From assembly GCA_900128395.1 (NCBI GenBank), contig LT649524.1, forward strand, positions 1 through 21,905: DNA of 21,905 bases. Direction: 5' to 3'. The translations under genes were made by a program, and so were the position numbers. Below are positions 628 through 19,533 of this stretch, piece by piece. The notes beneath the pieces were generated by a model. That model was not told where the DNA came from, ran no database searches, and saw nothing but the letters and a program-made list of their open reading frames with translations. This DNA comes from Stramenopiles sp. TOSAG23-2. Lineage: Eukaryota > Sar. Numbering within the stretch: the stretch's first letter is position 1; every line of letters begins with the position of its first letter.

Positions 628-1603
628 TTACATTATGTATACTTTATATATATGTATATATATATGGAGAGAGAGAGAGAGAGAGAGAGAAGGAAAGAAT
701 GGCTTTGATCGAAGAGACCGAATCATACGTGGTAAAGAGAATGGACGGTTACCGTATAAGTTCCAGTTCCAACCTCCAAACCAGCCAGTATTTTCTGAAA
801 CAACTACTGCTTTTTTAGCTACTGCTTTCTTTTTGGCAACTTTCTCTTCTTCTGCAGTTTCTTTTTCTTCAACTTTATCTTCTGCTTTTTTCTTGGCGAC
901 TTTATCTTCAATGACTCTTTCTTCTTCTTCAACTTCATCTTCTGCTTCTTTTTCTTGATCATCTTCTGCAGAATGGCAAACTAGCTTCTCTGGCTTAGTA
1001 TGCACCATTTCTCTTACCTGCCTTACCATATAAGTTCCAGTTCCAACCTCCAAACCAGCCAGTATTTTTTGAAACAACTACTGCTTTTTCAGCTACTGCT
1101 TTCTTTTTGGCAACTTTATCTTCTTCTACAGTTTCTGTTTCTTCAACTTCATCTTCTGCTTTTTTCTTGGCGACTTTATCTTCTTTGACACTTTCTTCTT
1201 CTTCAACTTCATCTTCTGCTTCTTTTTCTTGATCATCTTCTGCAGTTTCTTCTTTTTTAACAACTCCAGCTTCTGCTTTCTCTTTTGCTTCCTTACCATC
1301 ATCAAGCTCATTTATCAATAACTTGACCATGCCAGATGTTGCAGTATTGCATTTTAAGAGATGATCGATTTTTTTGTCATGCTCTTGCAAGACATCTACT
1401 ACCACATCAAATTTTTCGTCAAGTTTTTTGATATGTGTGGAATTTTCTTCACCAACTTTCAGTGCCTGTGTTATTTGAACATCATGTTCTGCTAACACAC
1501 TATCGACAACATTTTTTCTTTCTTCATTTTCTTTTTCTAACCTAGCTGCTACTTCTAAAAATGCTGCTTGTTGTTTTGCAGCTTCACTTGAAAAGGAAAA
1601 CAT
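628..1603 (-). CDS. Acidic/lysine-rich coiled-coil repeat protein (probably two exons: 1603-1027 and 965-628)
   Basis: The ATG at 1603-1601 opens MFSFSSEAAKQQAAFLEVAA. Residues 1-110 look like an amphipathic helix or coiled coil, followed by a Glu/Lys region with repeated EDKVAKKKA motifs and the aromatic motif NTGWFGGWNWNLYG. Read without splicing, the frame stops at 997-995 (202 aa). A good intron exists: donor G|GTAAGG (GT at 1026-1025), acceptor CTGCAG (AG at 967-966), 61 nt, phase 1. It keeps the frame exactly and appends a second copy of the acidic segment and of GWFGGWNWNLYG, giving about 304 aa. The last 40 or so residues run through (GA)n and (AT)n microsatellites (Leu-Ser and His-Ile-Tyr runs) and through the complemented block at 704-748, so the true C-terminus is doubtful. 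Function unknown; possibly a structural or membrane-interacting protein. Confidence 0.6.
667..690. repeat. (GA)12 microsatellite
   Basis: Twelve uninterrupted GA units lie next to an (AT)n tract (646-665). On the - strand this is a (TC)n run that either codes a Ser-Leu tail of the repeat gene or acts as 3' UTR or a polypyrimidine tract. Confidence 0.9.
697..1244. repeat. 274-bp head-to-tail tandem duplication (697-970 and 971-1244)
   Basis: The two copies align at a constant offset of 274 with no indels. From 751-971 against 1025-1245 I count 10 substitutions in 221 positions (about 95% identity), and both copies start GAATGGC (697 and 971). Within this alignment 704-748 differs from 978-1022 at all 45 positions, each being the Watson-Crick complement; both edges return to identity (GGC before, TTACC after). 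The duplication covers the acidic/GWFGGW C-terminal segment of the - strand gene. Confidence 0.9.
966..1026 (-). other. Predicted 61-nt intron
   Basis: On the - strand the segment starts GTAAGGCAGG and ends CCATTCTGCAG. It contains TACTAAG, close to a branch-site consensus. Removal joins a phase-1 exon end (TAT G) to AA GAT GAT, restoring the frame of the second repeat copy. The acceptor hexamer CTGCAG is also present at 1241-1246, where in the first copy it is ordinary coding sequence (Thr-Ala-Glu), so the intron appears to have been formed by the tandem duplication. Confidence 0.55.
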
Positions 1604-2349: not shown

Positions 2350-3288
2350 ATGTCCACAATTATGGAAACACCAGTAAAAAATCCCACAGGTGCAGCAGCA
2401 ACTTTATCTGTAGTAAGACATACAGCTAATCATTTACTACAAAGAAATGAAGTGCTACGTTTAGAGCATGAACTAAAAGAGAAGGAAGATGTTATTAAAA
2501 AATTAAAGGATGCACTTGATAAACAAGAGAAAAATTATCAAATAATACAAACAAGTGCCAAAAGCACCATATCTAATTTGATTGGTCATATTAAAATGCT
2601 TGAGAATCTTTTGCAGAAAGCAAAAAGCACAAAATGTCGACCAAAAAAAAAAAATGAAGAGACTGTTATAAAGAAGATGATGAATAATATTAGCAAAGAG
2701 CTAATGAAACATCTTCTTTATAACAGGAATGAAAATAATGGTAATACACCAGAAATGGAAGGATTAATGAAACAAATTATAACACAGGAAAGAATTAAAA
2801 ATGGAAAATGCACTTTTCAAACCTGGCATAACATTGGATATGGAATCCAATGCCTTCCCTTGAAACAGCAACAATTATTAGCATTTAATGTCGTAAAAAT
2901 GTTAAAACCTGAAAAGTTTAAACTGTTGGATCCAACATGTAAGCAAAGGAACGGTAGAAAGGCATATCATGATCTATACATAAAATTTTTTGAATCAATT
3001 CCCTGTGATTGGGTAGAGAAAAAGGCATTCTTAAAGATGAATGGAGTTTGGAGACATTTTCGTGGTGTTTTAAAAAGACCCGAAAGCACAGCTGATAAAA
3101 AGAAATATGGAACAAGATTAGAAAAGTATTTAAAAGCATGGCAAGTATACTTTGATCTAATTCGACTCATCATACGTAACTTTGTACCATCATCATCATC
3201 AGATGCAGGCAGAAAAAGCCTTTATACAATTATCCAATATACAGGATTGTGTGATATTAATGAAAAGATTGAAAAATTTATCTTGTAA
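2350..3288 (+). CDS. Unrecognised 312-aa coiled-coil protein
   Basis: The ATG at 2350 follows a stretch with in-frame stops and the frame ends at TAA 3286-3288. Residues 1-30 are a short flexible leader. Residues about 32-90 form a convincing coiled coil (EVLRLEHELKEKEDVIKKLK), followed by a Lys-rich patch (KCRPKKKNEE, about 96-105) that could be a nuclear localisation signal. Residues about 145-312 look globular, mainly alpha-helical and rich in aromatic and basic residues (TFQTWHNIGYGIQCLPLKQQ; DWVEKKAFLKMNGVWRHFRG). Coiled coil plus basic helical domain suggests a nucleic-acid-binding or nuclear protein, but I recognise no named family. No transmembrane segment or signal peptide is seen. 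It converges on the giant gene, with 185 bp between the stops. Confidence 0.8.
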   Translation: MSTIMETPVKNPTGAAATLSVVRHTANHLLQRNEVLRLEHELKEKEDVIKKLKDALDKQEKNYQIIQTSAKSTISNLIGHIKMLENLLQKAKSTKCRPKKKNEETVIKKMMNNISKELMKHLLYNRNENNGNTPEMEGLMKQIITQERIKNGKCTFQTWHNIGYGIQCLPLKQQQLLAFNVVKMLKPEKFKLLDPTCKQRNGRKAYHDLYIKFFESIPCDWVEKKAFLKMNGVWRHFRGVLKRPESTADKKKYGTRLEKYLKAWQVYFDLIRLIIRNFVPSSSSDAGRKSLYTIIQYTGLCDINEKIEKFIL

Positions 3289-3473: not shown

Positions 3474-6400
3474 TCAAACAAACGCCTTATTCGTCACCAC
3501 ATCACTTTCACTTCTTTTCTTTGCCACGCTCCCTCCCATTAAATTTTTCGCACTTTTAATTTTTAAAAATGCATGGGACCATCCTTTGTTTTTACCCAAA
3601 CGCATGTATTGACGAAATGTAGATTTACTTTCTATCCTTTTATTGTCAAAATGCACTGCCAAATGTGTGATTTCACGTTTCAATTCTTTCGTTTCTTCTT
3701 TGCCATTGCTGTCATCATCATCTACTAAAATTTGGAATGTCCAATTACTGCTTTCACCAACGGATGGTTTTAATCGTAAACAAAATATTGAATTCTTATT
3801 TTCAAATGTTTCCGCAACAAAATTATCATCCAATCTAATCAATTTAATAACTTTCTTCCGTTTGTTATCATCTATTACTTTTGCTAATACTAAAATATCT
3901 TTAAAGACATATAAACAATATGCACCGTCTTTCTCTACTCCTTCAATGTCCTCCATTATTTTCACACGAGCGACAGTTTGATATACATGATTGGATAATA
4001 TATCAGCATCAAATCCAAATTCATATTGTACTAATGATTTATCTTTCAATATTTCGCACATATCTTTCCATCTATCAACTTGCGTGGATAAAACTTTAAT
4101 TTGCTCGTATGCTTCTAACCAATTATCATAGTCATCATGGAATTTTGGCGTAAAATCAAAGATCACTTCAATTTTTGCAGCAAAATTTACAACATGTGAT
4201 ATTGGCAAATACAAGTATGAAAATAAATTCATTTTTGATTTTGTATTTGCATCCGCTTCATAAAATACGCGATATGCAATTTGTTTCTCTTCCCCTTTGC
4301 ATAAAGTGGACATTCTATCTAATAAATTTTTGAATTTCATCGTATACGTGACATGGTGTCTAAATGCAGGTATTAAATCTAAAATTAATTCCCCTACAAC
4401 TTTTGAAGCTAATTCTGCATTGTCAGATATACCTGCATCGTCTAATGAATTGATGAATCCTTTATGTATCCGTATGACATGCCTGAAATTATTCAGCCAT
4501 AAATGCAAGCGATGAGACAATGATTTTGGATTTGATATATGCTCATCTTCAAGTTTTATATCACACAATGGTTTAAAGTATATTTCCCAAGCAGTTTCAA
4601 TATCATTTAAAAATGCTTGTTCGAATTTTACCACTTCGTTTACCAATAACGAGCGTTTTTGCATAGAGATCGGAGTCATCTCTCCAAGAATGTTTTGATC
4701 TGTTCCACCATGAATAGTTGTAGTGGTTGCTGGTGCATCTGATCCAACTTTTATCGTCAATCCTCGCTTTCTAAATGTATGCGGTTCCTCTCCTTCCTTC
4801 TTATTTTCAACTCCAACTTTCCCAGATTCTTCGCCTTCTTCTTTGCCTTCTTCAACCTCTGCAATAACATCTTCCTTTGATATACCTTTGCTCTCCTCTT
4901 TTTCAATTTGTTTTCGTTCTTGTCTTAATCGTTTTTCTTCCTCTTCCTCTTCTATTTTCTTTTGTATCGTGATGAAATCTTCTTCAACTCGACCCATCGT
5001 CGATAAAATTGATTTTAAATTGGAAACATCCCCTTGTACTTTTTTAATATCATTTTGTACATTCACACTAACTTCTTTCAACGACGTGATTGTCCCATCG
5101 ATACTTTCATCTTTGATATTGTTGTTTCGTAATGCGTGATTGAGATCCTCAATTCTTTCATTCATACTTTTCGCAAATAGCTCAAGCTCATGCTCAATCA
5201 TTCTAACACTATACTCACTCGCTTCAATTCTTTCTTCTTTATCTAATTTGATTTTCGACTCTTTTAAAAGAGCAATTATATGTGCTGTTTTATCAGCTTT
5301 GCTTTGTTGTACGTTTAAATTTGGATTTCGTTTATCACGTTGTTGTTTCATCCAAGCAGAAACCCACAGCGTTGCAGTGTGTTCATCAATATATCTTTTC
5401 GCAGTGAAATACCTTTGTACATGTTCGCGAAATTTCATGCCGACTTTTCGCCTCAGTTTTCTGACTTTTTCCATACGATTGATCCAATCCGATTCTTGTT
5501 TTCCAGCGAAATCGGCAAATGTTTTAGATGGAACACCCGATGCTTCCTCCTCGACTAATTTTCCAATTGGGCCCAACATTGCCATTACTTCTAATTGTGC
5601 AATGGCTATTTTATCTGGGCGCCGCGGTGGAACAATAGCACCGAAGACACCACCAGGTCCAGTAACAACTTCTTTCGAACCACCAACGTCAGTACATACT
5701 ACTGGAAGACCTGCAAGGCCAGCTTCACCAAGTGCTAATGGCAAACCTTCCGATAATGACGAATTTAAAAAGATCCATCCTTCCGTCAAAACTAGTTTTG
5801 CATTGCCAAAACCACATAAAAAAACGTTGGAACCTAAATTATTTGATGAGATTAAATCTCTACATTCCGACGTATATGCAACGTCCTTATCCAACGACCC
5901 ATAAATTTTTAATCTATATTTCGTAATTTTATACACATTAACAATAATAGCAGCAGCTTGAATTGCATCTTTAACTCCTTTTAATTCATATACGTGTGAC
6001 AACATGACGACTGTTGGTAGTTGTGCTTCATTATCGCGCAAGACAACAAAGCGATTTGTTTCCATCCCATTGATTACTGGAAATATCTTTCGTCTCATCA
6101 TGACCTCTAAACCATTATTGCCACGCAAAGAGCCCATCCACGCTTCCCAAGACACATTTGTCTCGCAACAAGGAACAATACAATCAGCACTATTGAATAC
6201 TACATGAACGCATAACCTATTCAAACCAATAAGTGCATTTCTAGCAAATAATGGGAATCCGCGAAATCCAGAGATTGCCCTTAGGCGCTCTCTCCATAAT
6301 ACACCGTGATCCCATACAGCAAGCGATGTACCTCGCTTTTCTTTCGCAACAACTGCTAATATCGTTTGTATGCCATGATGTGTTGCATGTGCAACAGGAA

Positions 6401-9400
6401 TATCATAATCTGGCAAAGGACACGATAAAATTTCCAGAAAATGTATGAACAACGATAAAGCCATATTAAAATCCTCAAGTTGAGGATCTTCGCATGTCAT
6501 CATCGGGTGTTGACCTTCTGCATTTGCAACCATCACGTCATGCAACACTTTCCACTGCTTCATCCACGCTTGCCTGACTAATTTATGTTCCCAAGATGTT
6601 TGCCAATCAAAATGTTGAAAATAGGTCCATAAGTTTACGAAATTTTGCGTGTACGAGGCAACTTCTACTTCTGTAAATACGCTTTTTGCGCAGCCAACAG
6701 CAAGTTTTTGTACCATTGGAACAAAATATGTTTTTATTACATCATCGGTTGTTTTATAAACTTCCATCTGCATCTTACAGACTGGTTGATCACCTCGAAC
6801 AGTTTCATACGGCGAACCAAAATCGTTTCCCCAAAGTGGTACAAAGTTAATTGTTTCCACATTTTCCTCCACTTGATATGATTTTTGTACAACTTTCATA
6901 TCATTACCAACTTCAGCAACCATATTCCATGCCACATTTTGAACGTGCATGACGACATCGCGTCTGCAAGATGCAACGCCACCGCCATCCATTGGCCAAG
7001 TGCCGCTATCTAATCCTAAAACTCGTAAATGGGTAAAACTTTTATCTTCATCTTCCCCGTCATCAGATGTCTTCTTCGTATTTTGTGCAATGTTAATGGA
7101 TTCCCCACCACGTCCCATAATTTCTAAATCACTCAATCTCATGGCTAATCTACTTCGAACTCCAGGGAGGGGCTTAATGTAAGTAGCACTTAAGATTCCA
7201 CCCATATCTTTTCTCAATGCATCGACAGCATCATCCGTTTTGCATGAATCTCGTAATTTCCAATAGTCCTTTAACGTGGGCTCATCGCGTAATAAGAATT
7301 CATCCAAAAGTTGGCAATGAATACCTGCTAATTTACCATGCTCGGTATTCCACATCTCCCACAACGACGTCCGTTTGACTCCCGTCCGTTTGTTACCAGT
7401 TTTAAAATGTATTTTTCTCGATTTCTTCAGGTAACATGTTTTCCAAGATCGATGCTGCTGTAAACGTTGCAAACTATACAACGCAATATCATCATTGTAT
7501 ACATTCGATGCTGATTCTTTTTGTGAGAAATTATCTTTCAATAAATTTTCATTTACACCAATTAATCCATATGGATCATCTTTCACAAATGATGGGATCT
7601 CGTGCTCAATTTCATACGTTATCTCTTTTGTTTTTCTTCGCCTGCGATATGCCGTTTGTCTCTCAGCGGCTGTATCAACTAATTTCAATTGACTCGTAGT
7701 ATGTCCCAATGTTTTCTTATGTTGTTTTTTCTCATCACGGGATAAATTACGAGTTAAAGTTTTTTTCTTCGCACTCATTCCCTCCGTTGCACTTCGTTGT
7801 CGCATACTTAGACCTCTATTATGAAAACTTACCTTACTAAATTTTCGCGAGCTTCTACTCAAATCTCCAGAAAGAGTTGTACTATTAACGTTTATGGCAT
7901 CCGTAAATTCTTCAGATAATTCATTCATGAAATTTTTTGATTTTCGCATCATGCTATTAAATCGGTTTTTCACGCTAGATCGTTTTGAACTCCGGTCCTT
8001 TTTCTCCGTCTCCTCTTCATCAGGAACTTCGATTCTTTCACGGGTTAATTTCACGGTTTTCGTACTCGGTTCTTTCGCATGACGGTATGTAAATTTAGTT
8101 AAAAAGATATCATTATCCCATCGAAACATAACACTTTGAACGCGGCTTGTTAAAAATCGTTCACCATCTTTAGTATGATGATGATTTACAACCAGGGTCC
8201 AATTATCCCGTTTACACTCGTATACTGATCTATATGCATAACTGCGAGCGGGGTGGTGACTCTCATCATGAAAATAACTCGCTTTGATCTCTACCATATC
8301 ATTCAATTCATCTTCAATTTCTTGATTACTTTTATCAGTCATCGTTATGACAGATCTTTTAGAGGTGACTGAAAATTTATGAGCTCCCAACCCCGCAATG
8401 CCACCGCGATTTTTACTCATTTCTTCATCTTTTTTACTAGCTCGCATTTTGCTCTTTCTCATTGCTAATGCTTCTTCAGGGCTTAATTTTATTTTCAACA
8501 TTTCCGATCTATGTTCTTTAAATGCAATTTTAATCCCTTCCTCAATTTTTGCTCTCCAATTCATTGATTCAACGGTAGACTTAATCATGAATTGCAATAT
8601 ATCACGTTTATCTCTAAGACTGTACAATGATGAAAATGGTATTCCATTATTCTTATGCCTTCCACTATGATCTTTCCAAACTAAACCTGTCAAGTCAAAT
8701 TTGCTTTCAAACGCTTTTGAATCATCTCGAAATGCAACATCAGAACGATAATAAAATAATGGACCATTTGGTGGCAAGACGAAGAAACGCTTTGACCATC
8801 TGCTGTATCCATAGCGTCTTATTGTGCGACACTCGAACCACCCCATAGTTAACAATTCTTCCTGTTTTGAATTGTCTCCAGCCTTTTTCTTACCATAATG
8901 TTTGCTATCATGGCCAACTTTAAACATTCCATGTCTCCTTTTGAATATATTTGCTTTTATAATTCTACCTTCCTTATCATAGAATTCCTTCTCGATCAGC
9001 AGACCCTGGTTATCAACAATTTCTACACCAGATGGACATATTTCATATTCATGCGAATATTCAAAAAATTTCTCTTGCTCTACCTTTCCTTTTTTATAGA
9101 TAATTTGTTTTTCTAGTCGTCCGAATGGCAACTTCGATCCCCCATCATTTCTTTCTGCATAAAACGTTTCTGACATTAATGCGGCCTTTGTTTTTTTAAC
9201 TATCTCCTCTCCTTTAGGTAAATATGCGCTACCAAATTTTTGATTGCCGGATATTATTTTATTACGCAATTGCTCGTATTGCCTAACAACCGTATTTCCT
9301 GTTCTAGTTTTATCAAAGTATCCAACACGACATAGTCGTACACTTTCATCCAATACGCAAAATAATTTATGACTTTCACCAAAAAATATCGTTCGATCCA

Positions 9401-12400
9401 ACCCATCCCAACTAGCATGCAATGTTTGTACTTGTTCCTTTAAATTCCAGATTATTTTCCAAAACACCTTTTGTTTTAATGAGGATGCAAGTTTGAAAAC
9501 ATTAATTAAATACGTGTTGAGGATATTCTTAAAAAGCCAGTTTAACTTCGTCTGTTTTAAGAGATAGCTAGCTTCCCGAGGAAAATCATTATCACCGCGA
9601 TGGGACAAAACAAGCATTTCAAACATGACGAAAAAATGCCACATTATGCTAGATTCAGCCTTCATACTTAAACGATGATCAATTTCAAGAAACTCTTCAA
9701 AGTTATCAAAAGCTTCGATATCACCGCTAGTACTAAATTTAGACTCCGCATCTGGCCGTAATGGATTGTAGCCCCACTTTTCTGAACCGGCATTTTCTGT
9801 AATAGATGCCATACGGCGTTTTAAAAGCATCCTTGCAGCTGTTCCAATGCGTCGTGTCATCGTAATAGTACCTAGTGCGCGTATCACAACACGCCGCATG
9901 ATCCTTTTTGACAATAAATTACTTTTGTCAAAAGTTAATAGCTCCTCCGAGCCAAGTTCTTTTGCAACAATAAATTTCATTCCTTCCGGTGAATCCACAT
10001 CCGTCAAATAATCAATTGCAGAGAAAATAGCACCTTGAAACACTTTTGTACCCATGTTTTTTTGCAACGTTTTAAAAAGTGTTGCAAGCCCTTCGTCATC
10101 GTAACATGTATCAATTCCATATATAATGGCTAAAATTAAATGTCGGACTGGGTGAGACATAGTTTGCCAATCATTGTCAAAATCCATACCAAGTCCAGAT
10201 GCTTTAAATACCCTAAATTCGGTATCTTCATCTAGAATATACAACATGCTTGGCGGCATTAATCGCAACTGGCATAGTATTCTCATCGGTAAAAGACTTT
10301 CCGCATCCATTTCTTCATTATTTTCATTACCATCGGGTGACAATTTTGGATTGGAGTGACTGTCATGAACTGCAAGCTCGGCTAAACATGCTAAACTGTG
10401 CGAAGTTCCCATGATGCTCTCTGCTACTTCATGTACAAACGATTCTGCAAGTGCTTTTGCTAAAAAAATATTGTTTTTGTTGGAAGATGGTCGATTTGCA
10501 GATTTTTTGTAAGTTTCCCACGGGACGCCAATATATATAAATAGTATATTATCTGTTAATGTGTTTTCAGGGCTATCTGTATACGATGATATTGCAGAAT
10601 AGCCTTCGCCATGAGCTCGATCAACAACCATTTCATTATCAGGAACAATTAAAATACTTGTGCTTTTTATATACTGTTCAATATCATCATTAGCAACAAT
10701 GCTCCTTGATGAACCAACGCTATCTTTGTTCATTTTTACCCAAGAGGACATTTCTTTTTCAATATCAGCTTCATTATTTGATAAAAATGCTTCAGCAACT
10801 TTAAGTATTTTCTTTACATAATTTTCTCCATTGGCATCGTTTATAAATGATCGCAATGTACCTTCAATAGACAGATTGTTCTTGTTTATTTTCTCAGCAG
10901 CGTCTTCAACAAATGTTATGCTATCATGTATGACTTTTAATACGTACTTTCCAAGATTAGTATCTTGAGTAATAAGTACCTTCTTCTGCAACTTAGCCAA
11001 TTTTGTTGACATTTTTCTTTGCTCCGACGGCAACTTGCATTTCTTTGCTCCAATCCAACTTTGTCCTGAAGTTTGCATAGTTGGGCTCAGCAACTTGTGG
11101 TCGGCGCCATATGCAGCTATAGATGATAGATGATTTATTTGTATGCTATAAATTGAATAAATTCCATAGGTCCATCCACCAATTACAGTTGCAGCAACTG
11201 CTGAACCAGACGCTCCTGTAAGTCTTAGGAAAATAATTCCGCCTAAAAGACCAGCAATGATACCATAGACAAGGCCCACTAGCCTGGCTCCAGTCCAATT
11301 GGATGCGGACGTACTCATGAAGAGTTTATTAAATAATGCAAATATTAAACCTACATATCCAAAACATCCAATGGTAAAAATTACAATAGGATGTTGCGCT
11401 CCAAATTCGCCTTTATATGCAGTTTGAGAATGCCAAATGCATAGCCCAAGAGTAAAGAAATAACAAATGATAGCTAAAAACGACAAATTTCTAACTTCTG
11501 AAAAGTAAATTTTTTTCTTGTGTTCAAAGCGCTCTTGTATAAGGTTACCAATACTGCCATCGGATGCTGCTTCCGCTTTGTTATATGTGCGTCCTTTGAA
11601 TGTTGTGTTAAAAGATGTAATCTTAGGAACAACAAGTTCTAAATATGCACTGGTTAACATCAAGAATACAGTTGCCCAAAGCATCCCTTGTGTATAACCG
11701 CTTGTTGGGTCGCCAACAAATAAAAATGCCCCACGACCAGAAAATAAGAAAGCAAAGCGATCTAAAAAGATAAAGATAAAATAACACATTCCGTACAACA
11801 TTTCAGGCCCTTCAAAATCGAACAAAATACCACCTCGTATACCAATATCCGTCATTTGCTTCACAGTAACTGCACCAATTGCTTCTTTCAAAGTGCTATC
11901 CCAGTCACTCGAAAATGGTTGTGTATTTGCTTCCTTGCTGGATTGCAAGCAATACCATTTCATCAATAAATGTTCTTTAGCAAATAATTTTGCCCGTTGT
12001 GCAACCGCACGTGATTGGACAGGGTCAAGATAATCCACGCATGGATTAATTGGAAACCATTTTGGTAGCTTTAGGACAAATTGACTCCTTCGCTTTATTG
12101 CTTTTTCAACTTGCAAACAAAAATATTGTCGCAAGTCATGCTTTCGCTTTGCTTCTAGTTTTTTTGCTGCAGATGGATCAACTGCATCATTATTAGTAGC
12201 AGCATTTCCAGGTTGCAATTCTGGGCGTTCACGGCAAAACGTAGCTGCCCACTCATCTAGCTGTTTTTGACTTGGTACACTAAGATTATTAAAAGATTGA
12301 GATCTCGCATAACATATACGTCGAAAGAAAATTATCATCATGACGTCGACTAAAAATATAAACCCAATATATGTTGGTGCTATCCACTCCGTACCAAATC

Positions 12401-15400
12401 TATTATCCCCTTTTGATCCTTGAATTAACAAACTTGGAATTGCCAAAACAGCTGATGCGAAGAGTAAGACCCTTCCCCCACTTGACATCCATACGGGGTG
12501 GATACGAATGGTAGTCAATGCAGCAAGCATTAATAAATATGTTCCAAAGCCAAATGAATAACCAAAAAAATAAAGTGCATATATAAAATTTTGCATGTAC
12601 AAACCACAGACAATGGAACACATGGTAGCGCCTAGCAGCATCATTATACAGCCCATCATCACTCGCTCTGTCACTGTTACAATAGCAACATCAAATGAAT
12701 ATTGAAACATATAGTACGATCCCACACGCCCAATTGAAGCATTTACTGCACCACAAATAACAAATGCCAACAACATTGCAACACTCGCAATTGATTTTTC
12801 ATCATCTGACATTGCCATTGATGCAAAAAGGCCATCCCCTGTTGTTAAAACCAAACAAATTTCCAATAATGTACTAATGGAGAAAAACATACCAGATGCA
12901 TATTTAGAATATTTCGATTCTTCATCTTTAATCTCTTTCTTCTTTGGTTTAAATATGAAAGATGGTGGTTCTTCCTGAACCATTTGAGACCGGATGTATT
13001 CATACAACAGCTTCCCCGTCTCTCTACGCGACATGTCAAATGCACAATTAATAACATCTTCATCCAACCCAATCATCTCGATCAAAACGACAATGATATC
13101 CGCATCACGTATTGGAAATGCATCCATATCTCGCACTGATATATTCATTTCGCTAATTGCAACCATACGCATTGCACATAGCAAATGAAGCTGAATTGCC
13201 AATATATCATCTATCATAGGGACGCCTTCCCTTGTACATCTAGTTATTTCACCAATTAAACGATTCAATTGCCTCATATCTTCCTCCTTCCAACATGCAC
13301 GCTTAACCAGATGAACCAACACATCAAGCAATTTTTTATCGATTGAATTCAAATCATCGCGAGATACATCACTTGGTACAGTTGTAACTATGTTCTCAAT
13401 GACTAGGCCAAACGGAATGGTACCCCACCGTTTTGCCCGTTGTTTGCTATTGACTGTATCTAGTAAAAAATGATCCGCTTCATCCCTTATACCCCTTGCC
13501 AATTCTATTAAGACTCTTTCTATCATTTTATTATGATGTCTCTTTTTTGTTTTATGAATGACACGAGATGTTCGATGTACCATCATAGCAAGTTCTTCAT
13601 ACGATGCATTTTTTATTTGATTATAAATTCTATCCGGTAAAAGAGGAGATTTTGCTTTTTTCAACTTTTTTGATCCCAGCAATTCCAATAATACACATTC
13701 CGGATGATCAAACCCTCTAGCTTGTGCATAGGAATGTAAAACTGCTTCCACTGGATTAACATGTGAACTTGATATAAAAATATGTATTCCGTAGGGTGTA
13801 ACTTCATGTAAAGAGAAAAATCGTCTGCTACGCCCACGTCCATTTTCAACTGTAGAAAAAGCCCTTGGATATGCACTCCATAGATGAACTTTTTTGTACA
13901 CTCCATCAGCACTGGTTTCAGTTAATTCACGTCTAAGATCGGCAACTAGTTTGCTTACAGTTAAGATTGGGGATAGGGCTGTTTGAATATCATGATTTGC
14001 ACCCAAGTATATTGCATCTAGTTCTTTTAAAATTTCGTTAAATGTTGGTGAATATTCTTTTTTTTTTACATTTTTCCAATCACTGCCAACATAAACTTCT
14101 CTTTCTGTCTGTTCGGAAAGGTTTCCTAAGCAATTATTGGAACGGAGTAAACGAAGCAAGCCAAGCACTTCTTCAAAATCATTCATAGTACATCGTGTTC
14201 CAAATTCTTTTTGTCCACCACAATCTTTCACTGGCGAATCGACTGCATATATATTGTCAAGCATGTGTGCAGATTTTATTAATTTCTCGGTATTTTTTTT
14301 CTTAATGCCATCTTTCTTTATCACTTCTTCTTTTTTGTCCTCGTGCTCCTCCTCCCCTTCTTCTTCTTCTTCTTCTTCTTCTCCTTCTCCAATATCTTGT
14401 AAACCATCATCATTTATAGTGTTCAAAAATAGCATAGGTTTTTCTAGTTGGTTTGGGGCAAAACCAGGATCGTTCTCTAATTGGTGCCAAGAACTTCTAC
14501 CGCTGCTAGTTGAAGAAGATCTAGATGATTTAGTTGACATAGACATATAATCATAGCTACTTCCACGACGGCGTACGCTACTTTGCACATTACCACCATT
14601 GCCGGCATGAGCTGACCAATGTCGACTATGGCGACCACCTTGTTTTTGTGGTGACTCAGGTGTTTGAGAAAGAAACGACCATCTGCGATGCGTCTTTTTC
14701 TGTCCTAACTTTCCTTCCGGAGAAAATTTTGTCATATTTGCTTCTTTAATCACAGCCACTACAGGTTTAATCTTAAGCGGAGAAGCATCTTCGTCTTCTT
14801 TCTTCAACTTGTAGTTATACTCCTGGTCCGTTAAAGCAGTGGTTAATCCAGCTATTAATTCTCTTGTATCTACAGTGTAATTGTTATTATTGTCAGGCCT
14901 AAGGCATGTTTCCGGGTTCCATTTCCGGGTTACTTGACTGCTACTCGCAACAGACGTATAACCACGATTTTTAATTAAATTCCGTACTCTATCACCAATG
15001 GATTTCCCAACGCCTTCTGTCAACATATCGACAACTGAAAGGATGGCACTTCCACTTTTACTGGCGTCATTAAAAACCGCTTTTGGATCTGTAAATGTTG
15101 GATCTGTACATATTGTACATGCCATTTGGATGTCACCAGCCCATGAACGGCGAAAAAAACGTTTTATGGCGCTAGGATCGATGCAATCCTCATTACTAAA
15201 AACTTCTAAACCAATGACTACAAAATTTTGACGTCGAGATGTCACATCTTTCAAAAGTCTCGTTAAATTTTGTATATTATTGTATCGCTCGCCAAAAAAT
15301 GGTTTCAAATTACCATCCATATCCATTGTAGGATTATACATTACAATACCATCTACCGTATTTTGTATATCAAAATTATCATTTGCAAATGATGAAGCTG

Positions 15401-15743
15401 CATCTTCTACCAAAATTATTTTATTAACATCATTCTCTTTTAGATACAATTCTATATCCTGAAACATTTGAAAGACCCATTGTTGGCCTTTCTTATTTGC
15501 AGCAATATCAACTTGCGTAATCAACACACCATCATACTCTGTTTTAAAAATTTCTTCAATAGTATGATGATTTAATTCATCTTCGTCTAATGCTAACATT
15601 GAAAATTCACCAACAAAAAGGGGAGGTTTATCTTCATCCGTTAATTTTCCTGCTCCACCTGTCAACTTCGATTTGCTAAGAGCATATTGATGCACTAACC
15701 GTTTAATGCCATTTATATTCATATTTGATTTAAGAATAGCCAT
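3474..15743 (-). CDS. Giant 4089-aa PelG-like/PelF-like (GT4) polysaccharide synthase fused to PH and RhoGEF domains
   Basis: One uninterrupted ORF runs from ATG 15743-15741 to TGA 3476-3474. Order by residue: 38-275 alternating beta/alpha region; 370-430 Ser/Arg-rich and 449-470 Glu-rich disordered segments; 945-1540 twelve hydrophobic helices in two sets of six; 1540-2290 unrecognised; 2298-2405 PH; 2905-3440 PelF-type GT4; 3500-3625 coiled coil; 3695-3895 DH (RhoGEF); 3905-4062 PH-like. In bacteria PelF (cytosolic GT4) and PelG (12-TM) make and move the Pel exopolysaccharide across the inner membrane. Having both here suggests a membrane synthase/exporter using a UDP-sugar, with the GEF facing the cytosol. 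There is no signal peptide, and no intron is needed over 12 kb. Large fungal GT4 synthases are the nearest analogues I recall. The substrate is unknown, and I am less sure of the PelG match than of the GT4, PH and DH calls. Confidence 0.9.
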   Translation of the reverse strand: MAILKSNMNINGIKRLVHQYALSKSKLTGGAGKLTDEDKPPLFVGEFSMLALDEDELNHHTIEEIFKTEYDGVLITQVDIAANKKGQQWVFQMFQDIELYLKENDVNKIILVEDAASSFANDNFDIQNTVDGIVMYNPTMDMDGNLKPFFGERYNNIQNLTRLLKDVTSRRQNFVVIGLEVFSNEDCIDPSAIKRFFRRSWAGDIQMACTICTDPTFTDPKAVFNDASKSGSAILSVVDMLTEGVGKSIGDRVRNLIKNRGYTSVASSSQVTRKWNPETCLRPDNNNNYTVDTRELIAGLTTALTDQEYNYKLKKEDEDASPLKIKPVVAVIKEANMTKFSPEGKLGQKKTHRRWSFLSQTPESPQKQGGRHSRHWSAHAGNGGNVQSSVRRRGSSYDYMSMSTKSSRSSSTSSGRSSWHQLENDPGFAPNQLEKPMLFLNTINDDGLQDIGEGEEEEEEEEGEEEHEDKKEEVIKKDGIKKKNTEKLIKSAHMLDNIYAVDSPVKDCGGQKEFGTRCTMNDFEEVLGLLRLLRSNNCLGNLSEQTEREVYVGSDWKNVKKKEYSPTFNEILKELDAIYLGANHDIQTALSPILTVSKLVADLRRELTETSADGVYKKVHLWSAYPRAFSTVENGRGRSRRFFSLHEVTPYGIHIFISSSHVNPVEAVLHSYAQARGFDHPECVLLELLGSKKLKKAKSPLLPDRIYNQIKNASYEELAMMVHRTSRVIHKTKKRHHNKMIERVLIELARGIRDEADHFLLDTVNSKQRAKRWGTIPFGLVIENIVTTVPSDVSRDDLNSIDKKLLDVLVHLVKRACWKEEDMRQLNRLIGEITRCTREGVPMIDDILAIQLHLLCAMRMVAISEMNISVRDMDAFPIRDADIIVVLIEMIGLDEDVINCAFDMSRRETGKLLYEYIRSQMVQEEPPSFIFKPKKKEIKDEESKYSKYASGMFFSISTLLEICLVLTTGDGLFASMAMSDDEKSIASVAMLLAFVICGAVNASIGRVGSYYMFQYSFDVAIVTVTERVMMGCIMMLLGATMCSIVCGLYMQNFIYALYFFGYSFGFGTYLLMLAALTTIRIHPVWMSSGGRVLLFASAVLAIPSLLIQGSKGDNRFGTEWIAPTYIGFIFLVDVMMIIFFRRICYARSQSFNNLSVPSQKQLDEWAATFCRERPELQPGNAATNNDAVDPSAAKKLEAKRKHDLRQYFCLQVEKAIKRRSQFVLKLPKWFPINPCVDYLDPVQSRAVAQRAKLFAKEHLLMKWYCLQSSKEANTQPFSSDWDSTLKEAIGAVTVKQMTDIGIRGGILFDFEGPEMLYGMCYFIFIFLDRFAFLFSGRGAFLFVGDPTSGYTQGMLWATVFLMLTSAYLELVVPKITSFNTTFKGRTYNKAEAASDGSIGNLIQERFEHKKKIYFSEVRNLSFLAIICYFFTLGLCIWHSQTAYKGEFGAQHPIVIFTIGCFGYVGLIFALFNKLFMSTSASNWTGARLVGLVYGIIAGLLGGIIFLRLTGASGSAVAATVIGGWTYGIYSIYSIQINHLSSIAAYGADHKLLSPTMQTSGQSWIGAKKCKLPSEQRKMSTKLAKLQKKVLITQDTNLGKYVLKVIHDSITFVEDAAEKINKNNLSIEGTLRSFINDANGENYVKKILKVAEAFLSNNEADIEKEMSSWVKMNKDSVGSSRSIVANDDIEQYIKSTSILIVPDNEMVVDRAHGEGYSAISSYTDSPENTLTDNILFIYIGVPWETYKKSANRPSSNKNNIFLAKALAESFVHEVAESIMGTSHSLACLAELAVHDSHSNPKLSPDGNENNEEMDAESLLPMRILCQLRLMPPSMLYILDEDTEFRVFKASGLGMDFDNDWQTMSHPVRHLILAIIYGIDTCYDDEGLATLFKTLQKNMGTKVFQGAIFSAIDYLTDVDSPEGMKFIVAKELGSEELLTFDKSNLLSKRIMRRVVIRALGTITMTRRIGTAARMLLKRRMASITENAGSEKWGYNPLRPDAESKFSTSGDIEAFDNFEEFLEIDHRLSMKAESSIMWHFFVMFEMLVLSHRGDNDFPREASYLLKQTKLNWLFKNILNTYLINVFKLASSLKQKVFWKIIWNLKEQVQTLHASWDGLDRTIFFGESHKLFCVLDESVRLCRVGYFDKTRTGNTVVRQYEQLRNKIISGNQKFGSAYLPKGEEIVKKTKAALMSETFYAERNDGGSKLPFGRLEKQIIYKKGKVEQEKFFEYSHEYEICPSGVEIVDNQGLLIEKEFYDKEGRIIKANIFKRRHGMFKVGHDSKHYGKKKAGDNSKQEELLTMGWFECRTIRRYGYSRWSKRFFVLPPNGPLFYYRSDVAFRDDSKAFESKFDLTGLVWKDHSGRHKNNGIPFSSLYSLRDKRDILQFMIKSTVESMNWRAKIEEGIKIAFKEHRSEMLKIKLSPEEALAMRKSKMRASKKDEEMSKNRGGIAGLGAHKFSVTSKRSVITMTDKSNQEIEDELNDMVEIKASYFHDESHHPARSYAYRSVYECKRDNWTLVVNHHHTKDGERFLTSRVQSVMFRWDNDIFLTKFTYRHAKEPSTKTVKLTRERIEVPDEEETEKKDRSSKRSSVKNRFNSMMRKSKNFMNELSEEFTDAINVNSTTLSGDLSRSSRKFSKVSFHNRGLSMRQRSATEGMSAKKKTLTRNLSRDEKKQHKKTLGHTTSQLKLVDTAAERQTAYRRRRKTKEITYEIEHEIPSFVKDDPYGLIGVNENLLKDNFSQKESASNVYNDDIALYSLQRLQQHRSWKTCYLKKSRKIHFKTGNKRTGVKRTSLWEMWNTEHGKLAGIHCQLLDEFLLRDEPTLKDYWKLRDSCKTDDAVDALRKDMGGILSATYIKPLPGVRSRLAMRLSDLEIMGRGGESINIAQNTKKTSDDGEDEDKSFTHLRVLGLDSGTWPMDGGGVASCRRDVVMHVQNVAWNMVAEVGNDMKVVQKSYQVEENVETINFVPLWGNDFGSPYETVRGDQPVCKMQMEVYKTTDDVIKTYFVPMVQKLAVGCAKSVFTEVEVASYTQNFVNLWTYFQHFDWQTSWEHKLVRQAWMKQWKVLHDVMVANAEGQHPMMTCEDPQLEDFNMALSLFIHFLEILSCPLPDYDIPVAHATHHGIQTILAVVAKEKRGTSLAVWDHGVLWRERLRAISGFRGFPLFARNALIGLNRLCVHVVFNSADCIVPCCETNVSWEAWMGSLRGNNGLEVMMRRKIFPVINGMETNRFVVLRDNEAQLPTVVMLSHVYELKGVKDAIQAAAIIVNVYKITKYRLKIYGSLDKDVAYTSECRDLISSNNLGSNVFLCGFGNAKLVLTEGWIFLNSSLSEGLPLALGEAGLAGLPVVCTDVGGSKEVVTGPGGVFGAIVPPRRPDKIAIAQLEVMAMLGPIGKLVEEEASGVPSKTFADFAGKQESDWINRMEKVRKLRRKVGMKFREHVQRYFTAKRYIDEHTATLWVSAWMKQQRDKRNPNLNVQQSKADKTAHIIALLKESKIKLDKEERIEASEYSVRMIEHELELFAKSMNERIEDLNHALRNNNIKDESIDGTITSLKEVSVNVQNDIKKVQGDVSNLKSILSTMGRVEEDFITIQKKIEEEEEEKRLRQERKQIEKEESKGISKEDVIAEVEEGKEEGEESGKVGVENKKEGEEPHTFRKRGLTIKVGSDAPATTTTIHGGTDQNILGEMTPISMQKRSLLVNEVVKFEQAFLNDIETAWEIYFKPLCDIKLEDEHISNPKSLSHRLHLWLNNFRHVIRIHKGFINSLDDAGISDNAELASKVVGELILDLIPAFRHHVTYTMKFKNLLDRMSTLCKGEEKQIAYRVFYEADANTKSKMNLFSYLYLPISHVVNFAAKIEVIFDFTPKFHDDYDNWLEAYEQIKVLSTQVDRWKDMCEILKDKSLVQYEFGFDADILSNHVYQTVARVKIMEDIEGVEKDGAYCLYVFKDILVLAKVIDDNKRKKVIKLIRLDDNFVAETFENKNSIFCLRLKPSVGESSNWTFQILVDDDDSNGKEETKELKREITHLAVHFDNKRIESKSTFRQYMRLGKNKGWSHAFLKIKSAKNLMGGSVAKKRSESDVVTNKAFV
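3558..4031 (-). other. C-terminal PH-like domain following DH
   Basis: Residues about 3905-4062. Strand-rich sequence includes GAYCLYVFKDILVLAKVIDD, FCLRLKP and NWTFQILVDD, with a late helix containing W4055 (KNKGWSHAFLKI). A DH domain is almost always followed by a PH domain, which supports this. An Asp-rich insertion (DDDDSNGKEETKEL) separates the last strand from the helix. Confidence 0.6.
4059..4661 (-). other. RhoGEF (DH) domain
   Basis: Residues about 3695-3895. CR1 is seen as RSLLVNEVVKFEQAFLNDIE, ending in YFKPL, the usual 'NELxxTExxYxxDL...Y..PL' pattern. A middle helix has AFRHHVTYTMKFKN. CR3 is seen as YLYLPISHVVNFAAKIEVIF, matching the 'LxxPxQRLxRYxLLL' helix but with S-H-V-V-N in place of Q-R-L-x-R-Y, then TPKFHDDYDNWLEAYEQI. 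DH domains load GTP on Rho-family GTPases. The CR3 substitutions leave open whether exchange activity is retained. Confidence 0.75.
4869..5246 (-). other. Coiled-coil linker between GT4 and RhoGEF modules
   Basis: Residues about 3500-3625 are rich in Glu, Lys and heptad hydrophobics (RMIEHELELFAKSMNERIED; KKIEEEEEEKRLRQERKQIE). It could drive dimerisation of the synthase or act as a spacer for the C-terminal GEF. Confidence 0.7.
5424..7031 (-). other. PelF-like GT4 glycosyltransferase domain
   Basis: Residues about 2905-3440. The start has DSGTWPMDGGGVASC (W2916), matching the PelF-type 'GTYPYVRGGVSSW' signature. HHGIQTI and WDHGVLWRER (W3144-R3153) correspond to the PelF 'EHGIYLRER' segment, and FPVINGME (F3221) to the GT4 'IPNGID' motif. 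The donor-binding half has LSHVYELKG and the GT4 retaining EX7E motif SEGLPLALGEA (E3332, E3340) followed by GLPVVCTDVGG. All key positions look intact, so the enzyme is probably active. PelF uses a UDP-amino sugar; the donor here cannot be read from sequence. Confidence 0.85.
8529..8852 (-). other. Internal PH domain of the giant protein
   Basis: Residues about 2298-2405 follow the PH pattern: MGWFECR (M2300), then RWSKRFFVLPPNGPLFYYRS, then a C-terminal helix with the invariant Trp (ESMNWRAKIEEGI, W2396). Basic residues in the beta1-beta2 area suit phosphoinositide binding at the cytosolic membrane face. It lies between the membrane region and the GT4 domain. Confidence 0.8.
11124..12911 (-). 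other. Twelve-helix PelG-like membrane region
   Basis: Residues about 945-1540 hold six hydrophobic helices (952 to about 1145), a soluble loop of about 170 residues, and six more (about 1315 to 1535, the last near W1524). Helix 7 and the following segment (LYGMCYFIFIFLDRFAFLFS, then YTQGMLWATVFLMLTSAYLE) resemble my memory of PelG, where a helix with an 'IDKFLFWF'-like end is followed by an 'AMFLAYLSIIPGLALF'-like helix. Twelve helices is also the count for PelG and PST-type flippases. The inferred role is passage of the growing glycan across the membrane. Confidence 0.6.
14358..14390. repeat. Imperfect (TTC)n/(CTC)n tract coding a Glu run
   Basis: The + strand reads repeated TTC and CTC triplets. 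On the coding - strand they are GAG and GAA codons of the acidic segment (residues about 449-470) of the giant protein. This is a triplet-slippage tract inside a predicted disordered linker. Confidence 0.7.
14919..15632 (-). other. N-terminal alpha/beta region of the giant protein, possibly barrel-like
   Basis: Residues about 38-275 show regularly spaced hydrophobic strands: PLFVGEFSML, YDGVLITQVDI, KIILVEDA, VDGIVMYNP, FVVIGLEVF and MACTICTDP. The alternation with helices and the strand-end Asp and Glu residues recall half of a TIM barrel, as in glycoside-hydrolase domains. No catalytic signature was identified, so this is a fold guess only. It ends before the Ser/Arg-rich linker. Confidence 0.3.
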
Positions 15744-15843: not shown

Positions 15844-16311
15844 TTATGTATTTCTATTATTATTATTATTATTATTATCATTGTCCATTTCTAGTTCCTC
15901 ACTTAAATTTAATAACATTTTTGCATCATTTTTAAATGAGTCCGCCTCGTCGATCGTACCAAAATATTTTACAACTTTCTTTACTTTAGACAATCTAACT
16001 TTGAGATCCTCTGTTGATAAAAATTTTAATTTTTCTTCCATTTTGGAGTCAATGGATGCAGGTGTATTAACATTATACAATCCATGAAAAGAATGTTTTT
16101 TATCACTTAAATTTTCTAAACCATGTTTTGCTAAAATATCTTTCTTTTTCTTTTCATCTTCAATAATTTTTTCAAAGGATTTCAATGCTTCTTTTCTTTC
16201 TAAATATTTGGACCAATTATAGAAAACAATAAGAATCCCTGTGATTGTTAAGAAAAATGTTAACGATGCATAATATCTACCTTCGTTATGATATGCATAT
16301 TGTTCATCCAT
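15844..16311 (-). CDS. Small single-pass membrane protein with coiled-coil tail (155 aa)
   Basis: The ATG at 16311-16309 is preceded on the - strand by a (CAA)n leader; the stop is TAA 15846-15844. Residues 1-13 are polar, about 14-34 form one membrane helix (YYASLTFFLTITGILIVFYN), and about 35-65 are a highly charged helix (ERKEALKSFEKIIEDEKKKK). The rest is soluble, with FGTIDEADSFKNDAKMLLNL near the end and a terminal Asn run encoded by (ATT)n on the + strand. Without a signal peptide it would be an N-out or organelle-inserted anchor. It lies 100 bp upstream of the giant gene on the same strand, but co-regulation is only a guess. No family is recognised. Confidence 0.75.
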   Translation of the reverse strand: MDEQYAYHNEGRYYASLTFFLTITGILIVFYNWSKYLERKEALKSFEKIIEDEKKKKDILAKHGLENLSDKKHSFHGLYNVNTPASIDSKMEEKLKFLSTEDLKVRLSKVKKVVKYFGTIDEADSFKNDAKMLLNLSEELEMDNDNNNNNNNRNT

Positions 16312-16315
16312 TTTT

Positions 16316-16329
16316 GTTGTTGTTGTTGT
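16316..16329 (-). promoter_or_regulatory. (CAA)n leader of the 155-aa gene
   Basis: The - strand reads about four to five CAA units ending four A's before the ATG at 16311. A TATA-like TTTATAAT lies just upstream (16339-16332), but so close to the ATG that it may simply be AT-rich leader. The same kind of leader precedes the + strand gene at 17168. Confidence 0.5.
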
Positions 16330-16577
16330 ATTATTATAAAAGGAAGTTGATGGTGGTATTTTAGGGATGGGGAGAAAAATTAATTTTTAAAAGTTAAACA
16401 AACGAAAAGATGTGTTATATGAATTAAAAGTATGTTAACAATGATGAAAATATGATTATGATTGATATTTGTTGCAGATGTAATATGATAAAATGTGTAT
16501 ATATATAGATACAAATTGTTTTGTTTTGTTTTTTCATCACTACTTGTGCAATTTTATGATGATGAGGAGTGCAGGAC

Positions 16578-16630
16578 ACAATTTTTTAGGCACAGCAGAT
16601 AGAATTCTGTGCCTAATTCATAAAAATTGT
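16578..16630. repeat. Imperfect inverted repeat / hairpin
   Basis: The inner arms TTAGGCACAG (16586-16595) and CTGTGCCTAA (16607-16616) are perfect inverted repeats around an 11-nt loop. The outer arms ACAATTTTT (16578-16586) and AAAAATTGT (16622-16630) also pair, leaving a small asymmetric bulge (16617-16621). It could be a relic MITE tip, a small structured RNA or a cruciform-forming element. Confidence 0.8.
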
Positions 16631-17147
16631 TCAGATTGGTTGAGATGATTATTTACTGTATCTTCAACATCCAATGGTGCCCTGTTGCCTGGACCGATTA
16701 AAATAATAAGACTGAAAAGACAGATTTTACGAAAATTTAATTTATACGAACTGGACATGTACCTATTATAATACCGTGAAAATTAACCTTTTCGGAAATT
16801 ATTATGAATATTATATTTTTTTACAATTATAACATAGGGATAGGGTTATATAGTAATGTAAATATGAATTTATTGGGCTTATTTTTATTTTCAAAATGCA
16901 AATTTAAATAATTATTTTATTTTAATCATCAGTGTGCCGCCAGTCTAAGTCGTCGTTATCGTCTCGTCTTTTCTTTCTGTCCAATGTCCTTTTACTATGT
17001 ATATGGTGATGTAATTGTTTCAGCGTAAAAAATCAAATAATTCCACAGAAAATATCTTTTTCGTATTTCGTCCAGTTTGTTTCGGGAACTTTATGAAGCA
17101 TTCACAAAAAACATATCATCCGAACGTTAGCATAATATATATTTAAA

Positions 17148-17167
17148 CAACAACAACAACAACAACA
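17148..17167 (+). promoter_or_regulatory. (CAA)6 leader of the secreted-peptide gene
   Basis: Six CAA units plus CA run straight into the ATG at 17168. An AT-rich TATA-like run (17131-17145) lies immediately upstream. Unstructured CAA repeats are known translation-friendly leaders, as in the tobamovirus omega leader; a similar role here is inference. Confidence 0.5.
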
Positions 17168-17702
17168 ATGAAAATATCAGCATCAATATTAGCGTTGATT
17201 GCATTCGTTGCAATATTTATGGCCGTTCCTACCGAAGCACGACTAGGGCGTCGGCCACGCTATCCATGCTATTGTAGAGGTATTGGATGTTGTGGGGGTA
17301 TTCCGAATACGGGGCCAATACCACACTACAATTTCGACGAGGAAGACGAAGATGTAGGAGGGGCAATTGTAAGTTTTCTTTGATATTGACTTATCCGATG
17401 ACTGGCCTAACTATGGCACTGGAAAGGGTATTTTATTGTTGGAGAAGAGCAAAGTAAAAATTGTTGGTAACAGTGTTATATTGGACTATATTGGAAAAGG
17501 AGCTGCAGAAATACATTCAGAAATAAATATGGGCAACAAAACTATTAGAAATTTGGAAAGGTTAAATGAAGAGTTACAGGAAAATGTTAAAGAAGCAAAT
17601 AAAAGACATGACACATTTAAAGACAAGGCAATAGAGCGAGTTAATATTAATACATTGGTTTTTGGAAGCATGAGTGTTTATAATGGTAATATTTTCCTGT
17701 AA
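17168..17702 (+). CDS. Secreted Cys-containing protein, probably spliced (17168-17368 joined to 17427-17702)
   Basis: The ATG at 17168 opens a clear signal peptide (KISASILALIAFVAIFMAVP), likely cleaved after PTEA (residue 24). The mature start is basic (RLGRRPR), followed by PCYCRGIGCCGG (Cys 34, 36, 41, 42) and an acidic patch (NFDEEDEDVGG). Unspliced, the frame ends at TGA 17381-17383 (71 aa). A GTAAGT donor at 17369, a CTAAC branch-like site (17407-17411) and AG at 17425-17426 define a 58-nt phase-0 intron that joins an open frame of 91 more codons, including a coiled coil (RNLERLNEELQENVKEANKR). The product would be 158 aa. A possible further intron (17686-17741, GTAATA...TTTTAAG) would give a different C-terminus ending near 17785. 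Function unknown; the first exon resembles small secreted Cys-rich peptides. Confidence 0.6.
17369..17426 (+). other. Predicted 58-nt intron
   Basis: It has a GTAAGT donor, CTAAC 14 nt before the acceptor AG, and lies between phase-0 exon ends. The acceptor context AAAG|G is not ideal; an alternative in-frame acceptor is GGAG at 17441-17444. The length is close to the 61-nt intron predicted in the repeat gene. Confidence 0.5.
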
Positions 17703-17785
17703 TGCTATTCCAATGGTAAAATATATATACTTTTTTTTAAGGATTGCTGGATCGTCAAAATATACGAGTAATTTTTTTTGTTTAG

Positions 17786-17836
17786 AGGTACAGGTGAAAA
17801 GTCTAGGACCTAGATTAAGGTACAGGTGTACAGGTA
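17786..17836. repeat. Cluster of GTACAGGT repeats with a small palindrome
   Basis: GTACAGGT occurs at 17788-17795, 17820-17827 and 17828-17835. Between the first two copies sits the near-perfect palindrome TCTAGGACCTAGA (17802-17814). It lies in the 3' region of the secreted-peptide gene and has no recognised function. Confidence 0.6.
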
Positions 17837-18138
17837 GAGTACGATACAAAGCATGATGTGTATTTTAAAATTGTATTTTTAATAAAATATTTTAAAATAT
17901 TTAATTTACGCATCATAAATTTACTCGTACCTTTTTTTATTTTTTTAACACCTAACAAAACTTTTCTCCACTCTCTCGACACATTTTTTTTTCAGATCAT
18001 CTTTTTATACCTTGTATTTTTTTGATAGTACTAAATGATATCATAAAAGTAGCTTGTATAATGTCTCCTGGCATATCATATGATATATCAATAATATATA
18101 CACACAAAGTATATACCTTTAAAATATAGTTCATACAT
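17837..18138. other. Gap between convergent genes
   Basis: This AT-rich gap separates the secreted-peptide gene from the PRPP synthetase stop. An AATAAA at 17881-17886 could be the polyadenylation signal of the + strand gene. Nothing else can be supported. Confidence 0.5.
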
Positions 18139-19533
18139 TTACTTCTTAGTATCAAACAATTCGGATACAGATTTCCTTGCATGTACTCGTAAAATTGCAT
18201 TTGCTAACAATTCCCCTACAGATAATTGTACTAATTTCTCATTTGATTCCATATGCTTTGGCAATGGTACGGTATTAACAACTAATACTTTTTCCATACA
18301 TGAATTACGGATACGTTTATCAGCTGGACCTGAAAATAATCCATGAGAAGCAAATGCATATACTTTACGTGCACCATATTTTTTAATATTTTCTGCTGCT
18401 TTGCATAATGTACCAGCTGAATCAATCATATCATCTACTATAATTGCATCGCAACCTTCAACACTACCAACTAAATCCATCCTTGCAATTTCACCAGCTT
18501 TTTGACGTTGTTTAATAATCATTGCAACACCTGGTTCCGTACCTATACGTTTATGCAACGCTTCACCAAATTTTTTAGCACGATATACACCACCAGCATC
18601 TGGTGATACTACCACAGGATTTTGCAATGGTGGGTCTAAATTGCCAAAATATTCAACACCAACTTGTGCTGCTTCTAAATTATCCACAGGAACACGTGGT
18701 CCAAAGAAACCTTGGATTTGGCCACAATGTAAATCAACTGCGATGACTCTATCAACACCCATTGATTCCAATAAACGGGCAACATCTGCTGCAGAGATTG
18801 GAACTCGTGATGTCATTTTACGATCTTGTCTAGCATATCCATAATATGGTATGACAGCAGTAATTCTACGTGCCGATGCACGTCTCATCGTACTAACTAT
18901 TAATAATAATTCCACTAAACTTTCATTTACGTTTGGTGGGCATGTTGGTTGGATTAAATAGACATCTTGTCCACGTACATTTTCATTTACCATAACGTTT
19001 ACCTCACCATCAGCAAAACGACCAACTGTTATATCACCAAGTTTCATTCCTAAATGTTCTGTAATTTCTTCCGCTAATTTATGATTCGAACCGCCACAAA
19101 ATACTTTTGCGCGTCGCATTGGGTTAAATCCTTTCTCTTGCCCTGCATCTTCTAAGCCACTTTTATCGACTGGCTCATCATCATCATCCTCATCATCATC
19201 CTCATTCTGTTCCACAGTATCTTCCGCATTATTATTATTAGCTTTTGCATGTAACACAGAAGCAAATCCAGCGCAAGAGGTTAAACAAATAGTAAAAATA
19301 GTTGCTGAGGATGAATTATTTTGCTTCGAGCTAAAAGTTGTCACCCTGTTTGTTTTATTAAACGTTGAAAATTGTTTATTTGTACCTTTGCCAAATTGTT
19401 GGTAGTTGGTTCTTTTACTATTTTTCAAAGTATTGGTGAAAAAACGTTTTGACGTAGTGGTAATAGGTTTGTTGGATATTGATAATATTGCATGGCGTTG
19501 TGCTGCTAATTTTTGAATAGATGAACGTAACAT
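18139..19533 (-). CDS. Ribose-phosphate pyrophosphokinase (PRPP synthetase), organelle-targeted form
   Basis: It makes 5-phosphoribosyl-1-pyrophosphate from ribose 5-phosphate and ATP for nucleotide, His and Trp synthesis. The catalytic core spans residues about 139-464 and matches class I enzymes: KVFCGGSNHKLAEEI, GRFADGEVNV, the ATP-contacting YYGYARQDRK (RQDR 235-238), metal/ATP site DLHCGQIQGFFGPRVPVDNL (from 267), SPDAGGVYRAKKF (310-322), the flexible catalytic loop KQRQKAGEIAR (K341, R343) and the PRPP loop VDDMIDSAGT (366-375). All are intact. Residues 1-75 are basic and Ser/Thr-rich (MLRSSIQKLAAQRHAILSIS), a mitochondrial-type presequence, then a hydrophobic stretch (about 77-94) and an Asp/Glu run (about 110-120). 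Membrane anchoring or a bipartite plastid signal is possible. The core is about the usual 315-325 residues; the extra 138 are N-terminal. Confidence 0.95.
   Translation of the reverse strand: MLRSSIQKLAAQRHAILSISNKPITTTSKRFFTNTLKNSKRTNYQQFGKGTNKQFSTFNKTNRVTTFSSKQNNSSSATIFTICLTSCAGFASVLHAKANNNNAEDTVEQNEDDDEDDDDEPVDKSGLEDAGQEKGFNPMRRAKVFCGGSNHKLAEEITEHLGMKLGDITVGRFADGEVNVMVNENVRGQDVYLIQPTCPPNVNESLVELLLIVSTMRRASARRITAVIPYYGYARQDRKMTSRVPISAADVARLLESMGVDRVIAVDLHCGQIQGFFGPRVPVDNLEAAQVGVEYFGNLDPPLQNPVVVSPDAGGVYRAKKFGEALHKRIGTEPGVAMIIKQRQKAGEIARMDLVGSVEGCDAIIVDDMIDSAGTLCKAAENIKKYGARKVYAFASHGLFSGPADKRIRNSCMEKVLVVNTVPLPKHMESNEKLVQLSVGELLANAILRVHARKSVSELFDTKK

Follow-up and report, generated by a model that had tools for sequence, protein, structure and literature searches.

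Near one end of the contig analysed here, 45 bases at positions 704-748 are the exact complement, read in the same direction, of the 45 bases that occupy the same place in the neighbouring repeat copy at positions 978-1022. The complement pair is present in the sequence and lies beyond chance, and it almost certainly has no biological origin. We assign a probability of about 0.95 to its being an in-silico artefact. The window, by which we mean the whole stretch of 21,905 nucleotides that was analysed, makes up the entire contig C291, one of 793 contigs in an assembly of 17.45 Mb. The features that bear on the block are listed in Table 1.

Table 1. Features around the complement block, with positions in the window
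Feature	Positions	Strand	Remarks
TA-rich stretch, then (GA)n run	641-690		GA from 667; leaves 13 bases before the altered block
Downstream repeat unit (second copy) of the gene end; includes the altered block	696-971	-	From the offset-274 alignment
Altered block	704-748		Exact same-direction complement of 978-1022
Other repeat unit (first copy) of the gene end; block in its ordinary form	970-1245	-	From the offset-274 alignment
Probable original block	978-1022		Minus strand: TAA stop (995-997), preceded by most of the KAGKRNGAY C-terminus
202-aa open frame with stop	995-1603	-	Second half acidic and lysine-rich; ends NTGWFGGWNWNLYGKAGKRNGAY

The complement pair and its edges

When the two blocks were compared pairwise at an offset of 274 bp, we observed Watson-Crick complementarity in the same direction at 45 of 45 positions and identity at 0 of 45, confirming the in-place complement described in the initial annotation of this DNA. 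Both blocks lie in register within a tandem duplication that has this same offset. On the left, positions 696-703 are identical to their counterparts (8/8), and on the right identity is back at position 749, in agreement with the earlier remark that identity resumes at once on both sides. Over positions 749-971 we counted 10 substitutions by eye on the printed alignment, three of which are A/T changes (910, 911 and 916); the earlier count of 10 substitutions therefore stands, and the span to which it applies is 223 positions rather than 221. The edges of the block are abrupt: no exception occurs among its 45 positions, and the 223 positions outside it carry 10 substitutions. By our own arithmetic, a run of 45 positions free of exceptions has p of ~0.13 at the outside substitution rate, which gives weak support to a recent copy. 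On the minus strand, the altered block reads as another open frame (GNRPFSLPRMIRSLRS...) instead of the protein end and stop, and positions 748-972 translate into a stretch that shares 87% identity with the 202-aa protein (residues 120-194).

All 45 pairs are A/T or G/C, and the length of the run is far beyond what chance would give. Assuming independent bases, exact complements in the same direction that extend for at least 45 bases are expected 9.3e-18 times over all pairs in the window, which upholds the earlier claim that chance is excluded by length. The runner-up complement match within the window is 17 bases long and consists of a TTG repeat.

Polymerases and recombinases work on antiparallel strands and so produce direct or reverse-complement copies. 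An ordinary mutation at this site, whether an inversion, a microinversion, a template switch at an inverted repeat or chance divergence, might be considered on the general ground that repeats commonly undergo inversions and template switches. However, these events yield reverse complements, and the original 45-mer agrees with the reverse complement of the altered block at only 11 of 45 positions, which is also its match to its own reverse, and with its own reverse complement at 2 of 45. Since the block has neither mirror nor palindromic symmetry, inversion cannot mimic a same-direction complement here, as the initial annotation had maintained. When both blocks were masked, the altered block scored at best 11.0 (direct) and 10.5 (reverse complement) in ungapped matching against the rest of the window, inside the range of 9.5-14.5 obtained with 60 control 45-mers in the direct orientation only. 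Likewise, a search of the assembly at up to 3 mismatches revealed no outside source for the altered block. Given these results and a chance expectation of ~9e-18, the probability that we attach to an ordinary mutation is vanishingly small.

With up to 3 mismatches allowed, a search of the assembly (17.45 Mb) finds each of the two 45-mers a single time, so that the genome-wide search for both 45-mers proposed in the initial annotation yields one place for each. In each search the backward control counted a single match, necessarily the other copy. The neighbouring coding stretch GWFGGWNWNL supplied a 32-base pattern, which matched twice, both times within the duplication. No exact copy of either 45-mer was found in viral_contigs, and a 29-base portion of the repeat matched nothing in either genome_contigs or viral_contigs. 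At the protein level, a pattern for relatives of P0001, a protein introduced below, matched nothing in viral_contigs, and 100 stretches in genome_contigs matched a pattern for relatives of the 202-aa protein, none of which was confirmed. Few matches are to be expected in these collections, since they hold viral and prokaryotic contigs.

Which copy carries the original form

The block at 978-1022 is probably the original, or ancestral, form, as judged from a comparison of protein ends. Among 1157 candidates in a protein search, the sole relative found for the 202-aa protein is P0001, encoded on another contig of 977 bp. The last 127 residues of P0001 align to the last 131 of the 202-aa protein with 123 of 131 columns identical, and both proteins end in KAGKRNGAY, residues that are mostly encoded within 978-1022. 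Thus, the earlier proposal that this copy is the original, which had been offered as inference, now has one relative on its side. The comparison with P0001 was made at the protein level. Over the whole alignment the identity is 62%, most of which comes from the second half; the N-terminal halves align poorly. P0001 has the unaltered C-terminus, but because its N-terminal half is mostly different it may represent a paralogue at another locus. The combination of a common C-terminal stretch with N-terminal halves that can hardly be aligned is an observation in its own right, and suggests gene-end shuffling or a chimeric contig. The 202-aa protein matched no Pfam family at E 0.001.

A second search, queried with 48 residues of the frame crossing the altered block, again returned P0001 as the only match (1 of 4 candidates). 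This match covers about one third of the query and fits the stretch that precedes the block. That the frame through the altered block finds only P0001, and that the ordinary form corresponds to the end of a protein on another contig, were both counted in favour of an artefact. The window's own frames are absent from the matches of both searches (1 of 1157 and 1 of 4 candidates).

The initial annotation had also pointed to an in-frame stop in 978-1022 that is lost at 704-748. We find this stop at 995-997 and an open frame across the altered block. Between the two copies, the minus strand reads GTAAGG ... TACTAA ... CTGCAG, which by eye is a candidate for splicing that would join both copies in frame. 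The end of P0001 coincides with the stop of the window frame, which would fit a plain stop.

Base composition gave mixed indications. The test leaned slightly to 704-748 at order 2 and slightly to 978-1022 at order 3, and at order 4 it favoured 704-748 as the more natural form by ~3.5 to 1, a result that was counted against the artefact reading. The altered block contains 4 CG and 0 GC dinucleotides, a mild lean opposite to the order-4 result; of 20,000 sampled 45-mers with like G+C, at least 4 CG occurred in 1460 and 0 GC in 1395. We gave the protein evidence from P0001 more weight than composition in regarding 978-1022 as the probable original.

Origin of the complement block

An in-silico origin is by far the likeliest because replication, repair and recombination are not known to copy from a parallel template. 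With inversion and chance both excluded, the reading preferred in the initial annotation, that of data handling or an in-silico edit of one copy, is supported. That the origin is computational is our inference, as is the step that introduced the block. Somewhere between the reads and the contig, 45 bases of the second repeat copy would have been written as the complement of the true sequence, through a piece that underwent complementing but no reversal or, if it was on the other strand at the time, reversal but no complementing. In what appears to be the simplest route, a short minus-strand piece would have been extended leftwards, or placed, from the right-hand repeat. On return to the plus strand this piece would have been reversed and not complemented, leaving a same-direction complement that abuts the right flank.

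Within the artefact reading, an error of assembly or gap closing has slightly better than even odds. Assemblies tend to break and be patched at microsatellites and at near-identical repeats near contig ends. The altered block lies 704 bases from the contig end, between the TA/GA microsatellite, which is a likely assembly break point, and the near-identical tandem copy to its right, and this setting suits an assembly error. The length of the block, 45, corresponds to no k-mer size or word boundary that we could think of, which we counted against an artefact. Moreover, among the titles listed in literature searches (20 of 515 and 20 of 77) there was no report of an assembly error that complements without reversing. 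One stramenopile single-cell study used SSPACE and GapCloser (PMC5778133), but nothing ties the window to that study.

A further possibility, which takes its share of the probability given above for an artefact, is a 'complement' operation applied later to 45 bases of the finished contig, by accident or deliberately, including as a planted change. We hold this to be quite possible, if a little short of an even chance, and it fits about as well as a gap-closing step. Nothing speaks directly against it. The sharp edges of the block and the isolation of the event in the 222 kb scanned (see below) suit a one-off edit, and the copy of the contig in the assembly carries the same block, being identical to the window (100%) over positions 600-1300. 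Any such edit must therefore predate both. A microsatellite beside a tandem repeat is, however, a more natural place for an assembly problem than for an edit at a random spot.

To look for further cases, we scanned an all-against-all set of 221,905 bases, made up of the window plus twenty 10-kb stretches; the set contains 3337 N and represents ~1.3% of the assembly. The scan took exact matches with low-complexity ones dropped, so that blocks broken by later changes are missed. Sixty same-direction complement matches of at least 16 bases were found in these 222 kb, each pair being counted in both directions, and only the pair formed by 704-748 and 978-1022 reached 20 bases, the next longest being 19. 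After the low-complexity filter, two surrogate sets simulated from the 222 kb by a first-order Markov model had a longest complement match of 18. Mirror matches, the class that would result from such an error between inverted copies, included 1 in 90 of at least 20 bases; it measured 21 bases, as against maxima of 22 and 21 in the surrogates. Finally, a repeat 25-mer has 19 ordinary copies in the assembly, all of them on contig C1, and 0 complement copies. The scan for other complement matches that had been suggested in the initial annotation, as made here over 1.3% of the assembly, gave no other exact, non-simple match longer than 19 bases.

The lack of a second pair in 222 kb and of complements among the 19 repeat copies gives no sign of a systematic bug, and was counted against an artefact. 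Global mis-processing, in which reads would have been complemented throughout, is unsupported given that the 222 kb hold no other complement pair. In the sampled stretches N occurs only at two contig starts, and there is accordingly no open scaffold gap in them, which was counted against the gap-closing version.

The biological alternative is a real event, taking place in the organism or while its DNA was being amplified, in which a strand was synthesised or repaired on a parallel template provided by the neighbouring copy. Synthesis of this kind would yield exactly the observed pattern. To our knowledge, however, no accepted enzyme performs such synthesis, only one case was found in 222 kb, and the sole relative found, P0001, ends in the ordinary form. 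One paper, on 'Parallel DNA PCR', claims amplification in vitro with a primer that pairs in parallel with single-stranded DNA, and the polarity of its product would be the same as that of the block described here; as described there, though, the reaction is an in-tube and not a cellular one, with designed primers and a 120-nt single-stranded template (PMC4304224). Among the titles listed in literature searches (again 20 of 515 and 20 of 77), there was no independent confirmation of this claim. We therefore consider a real event highly improbable, and the truly novel process that the initial annotation had named as an alternative gained no support. Were it real, the antiparallel rule of nucleic acid copying would be broken.

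Among known systems, the nearest formal category for the block is that of the 'complement repeats' reported by REPuter in chloroplast papers, which are likewise paired same-direction complements. Those repeats are mostly short and of low complexity, whereas the block here is complementary at 45/45 positions, is not a simple repeat and lies in register inside a tandem duplication. Orientation errors in scaffolding and gap closing of short-read assemblies also occur at repeats and microsatellites, where a piece from the other strand is put back wrongly; in the familiar cases the outcome is a collapse or a wrong reverse complement, in contrast to the complement without reversal seen here. As an artefact, the block is a warning that errors of this type may sit unnoticed in assemblies, since it takes a second copy of the sequence, such as is present here, to reveal them. 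An inexpensive quality check would be to search the tandem repeats of assemblies for complement blocks that lie in register.

Other features of the contig and the assembly

No tRNA was found in the window. A PRPS protein is encoded at 18139-19533, and its named relatives among the best 120 of 7989 include Phytophthora, Ectocarpus, Cafeteria and Triparma, all of them stramenopiles, which suggests that the organism belongs to this group. The cluster to which this protein belongs at 90% identity, P0002, stands for 11 contigs, the longest of which is 18,083 bases. The minus strand at 3474-15743 holds a single open frame of 4089 aa with glycosyltransferase domains (DUF3492 and group 1) and a RhoGEF domain, as well as a PH match that falls below Pfam's cut-off. 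The fusion in this frame looks unusual. A perfect inverted repeat of 17 bp at 2663-2679 and 2710-2726 (CTGTTATAAAGAAGATG and CATCTTCTTTATAACAG), with 30 bases between its arms, sits within an open frame of 312 aa at 2350-3288. On contig C1, positions 16068-17852 form a tandem array with units mostly 84 bp apart, in which the 25-mer mentioned above occurs 19 times at up to 3 mismatches, on one strand and nowhere else in the assembly. By eye, this array looks like leucine-rich repeats.
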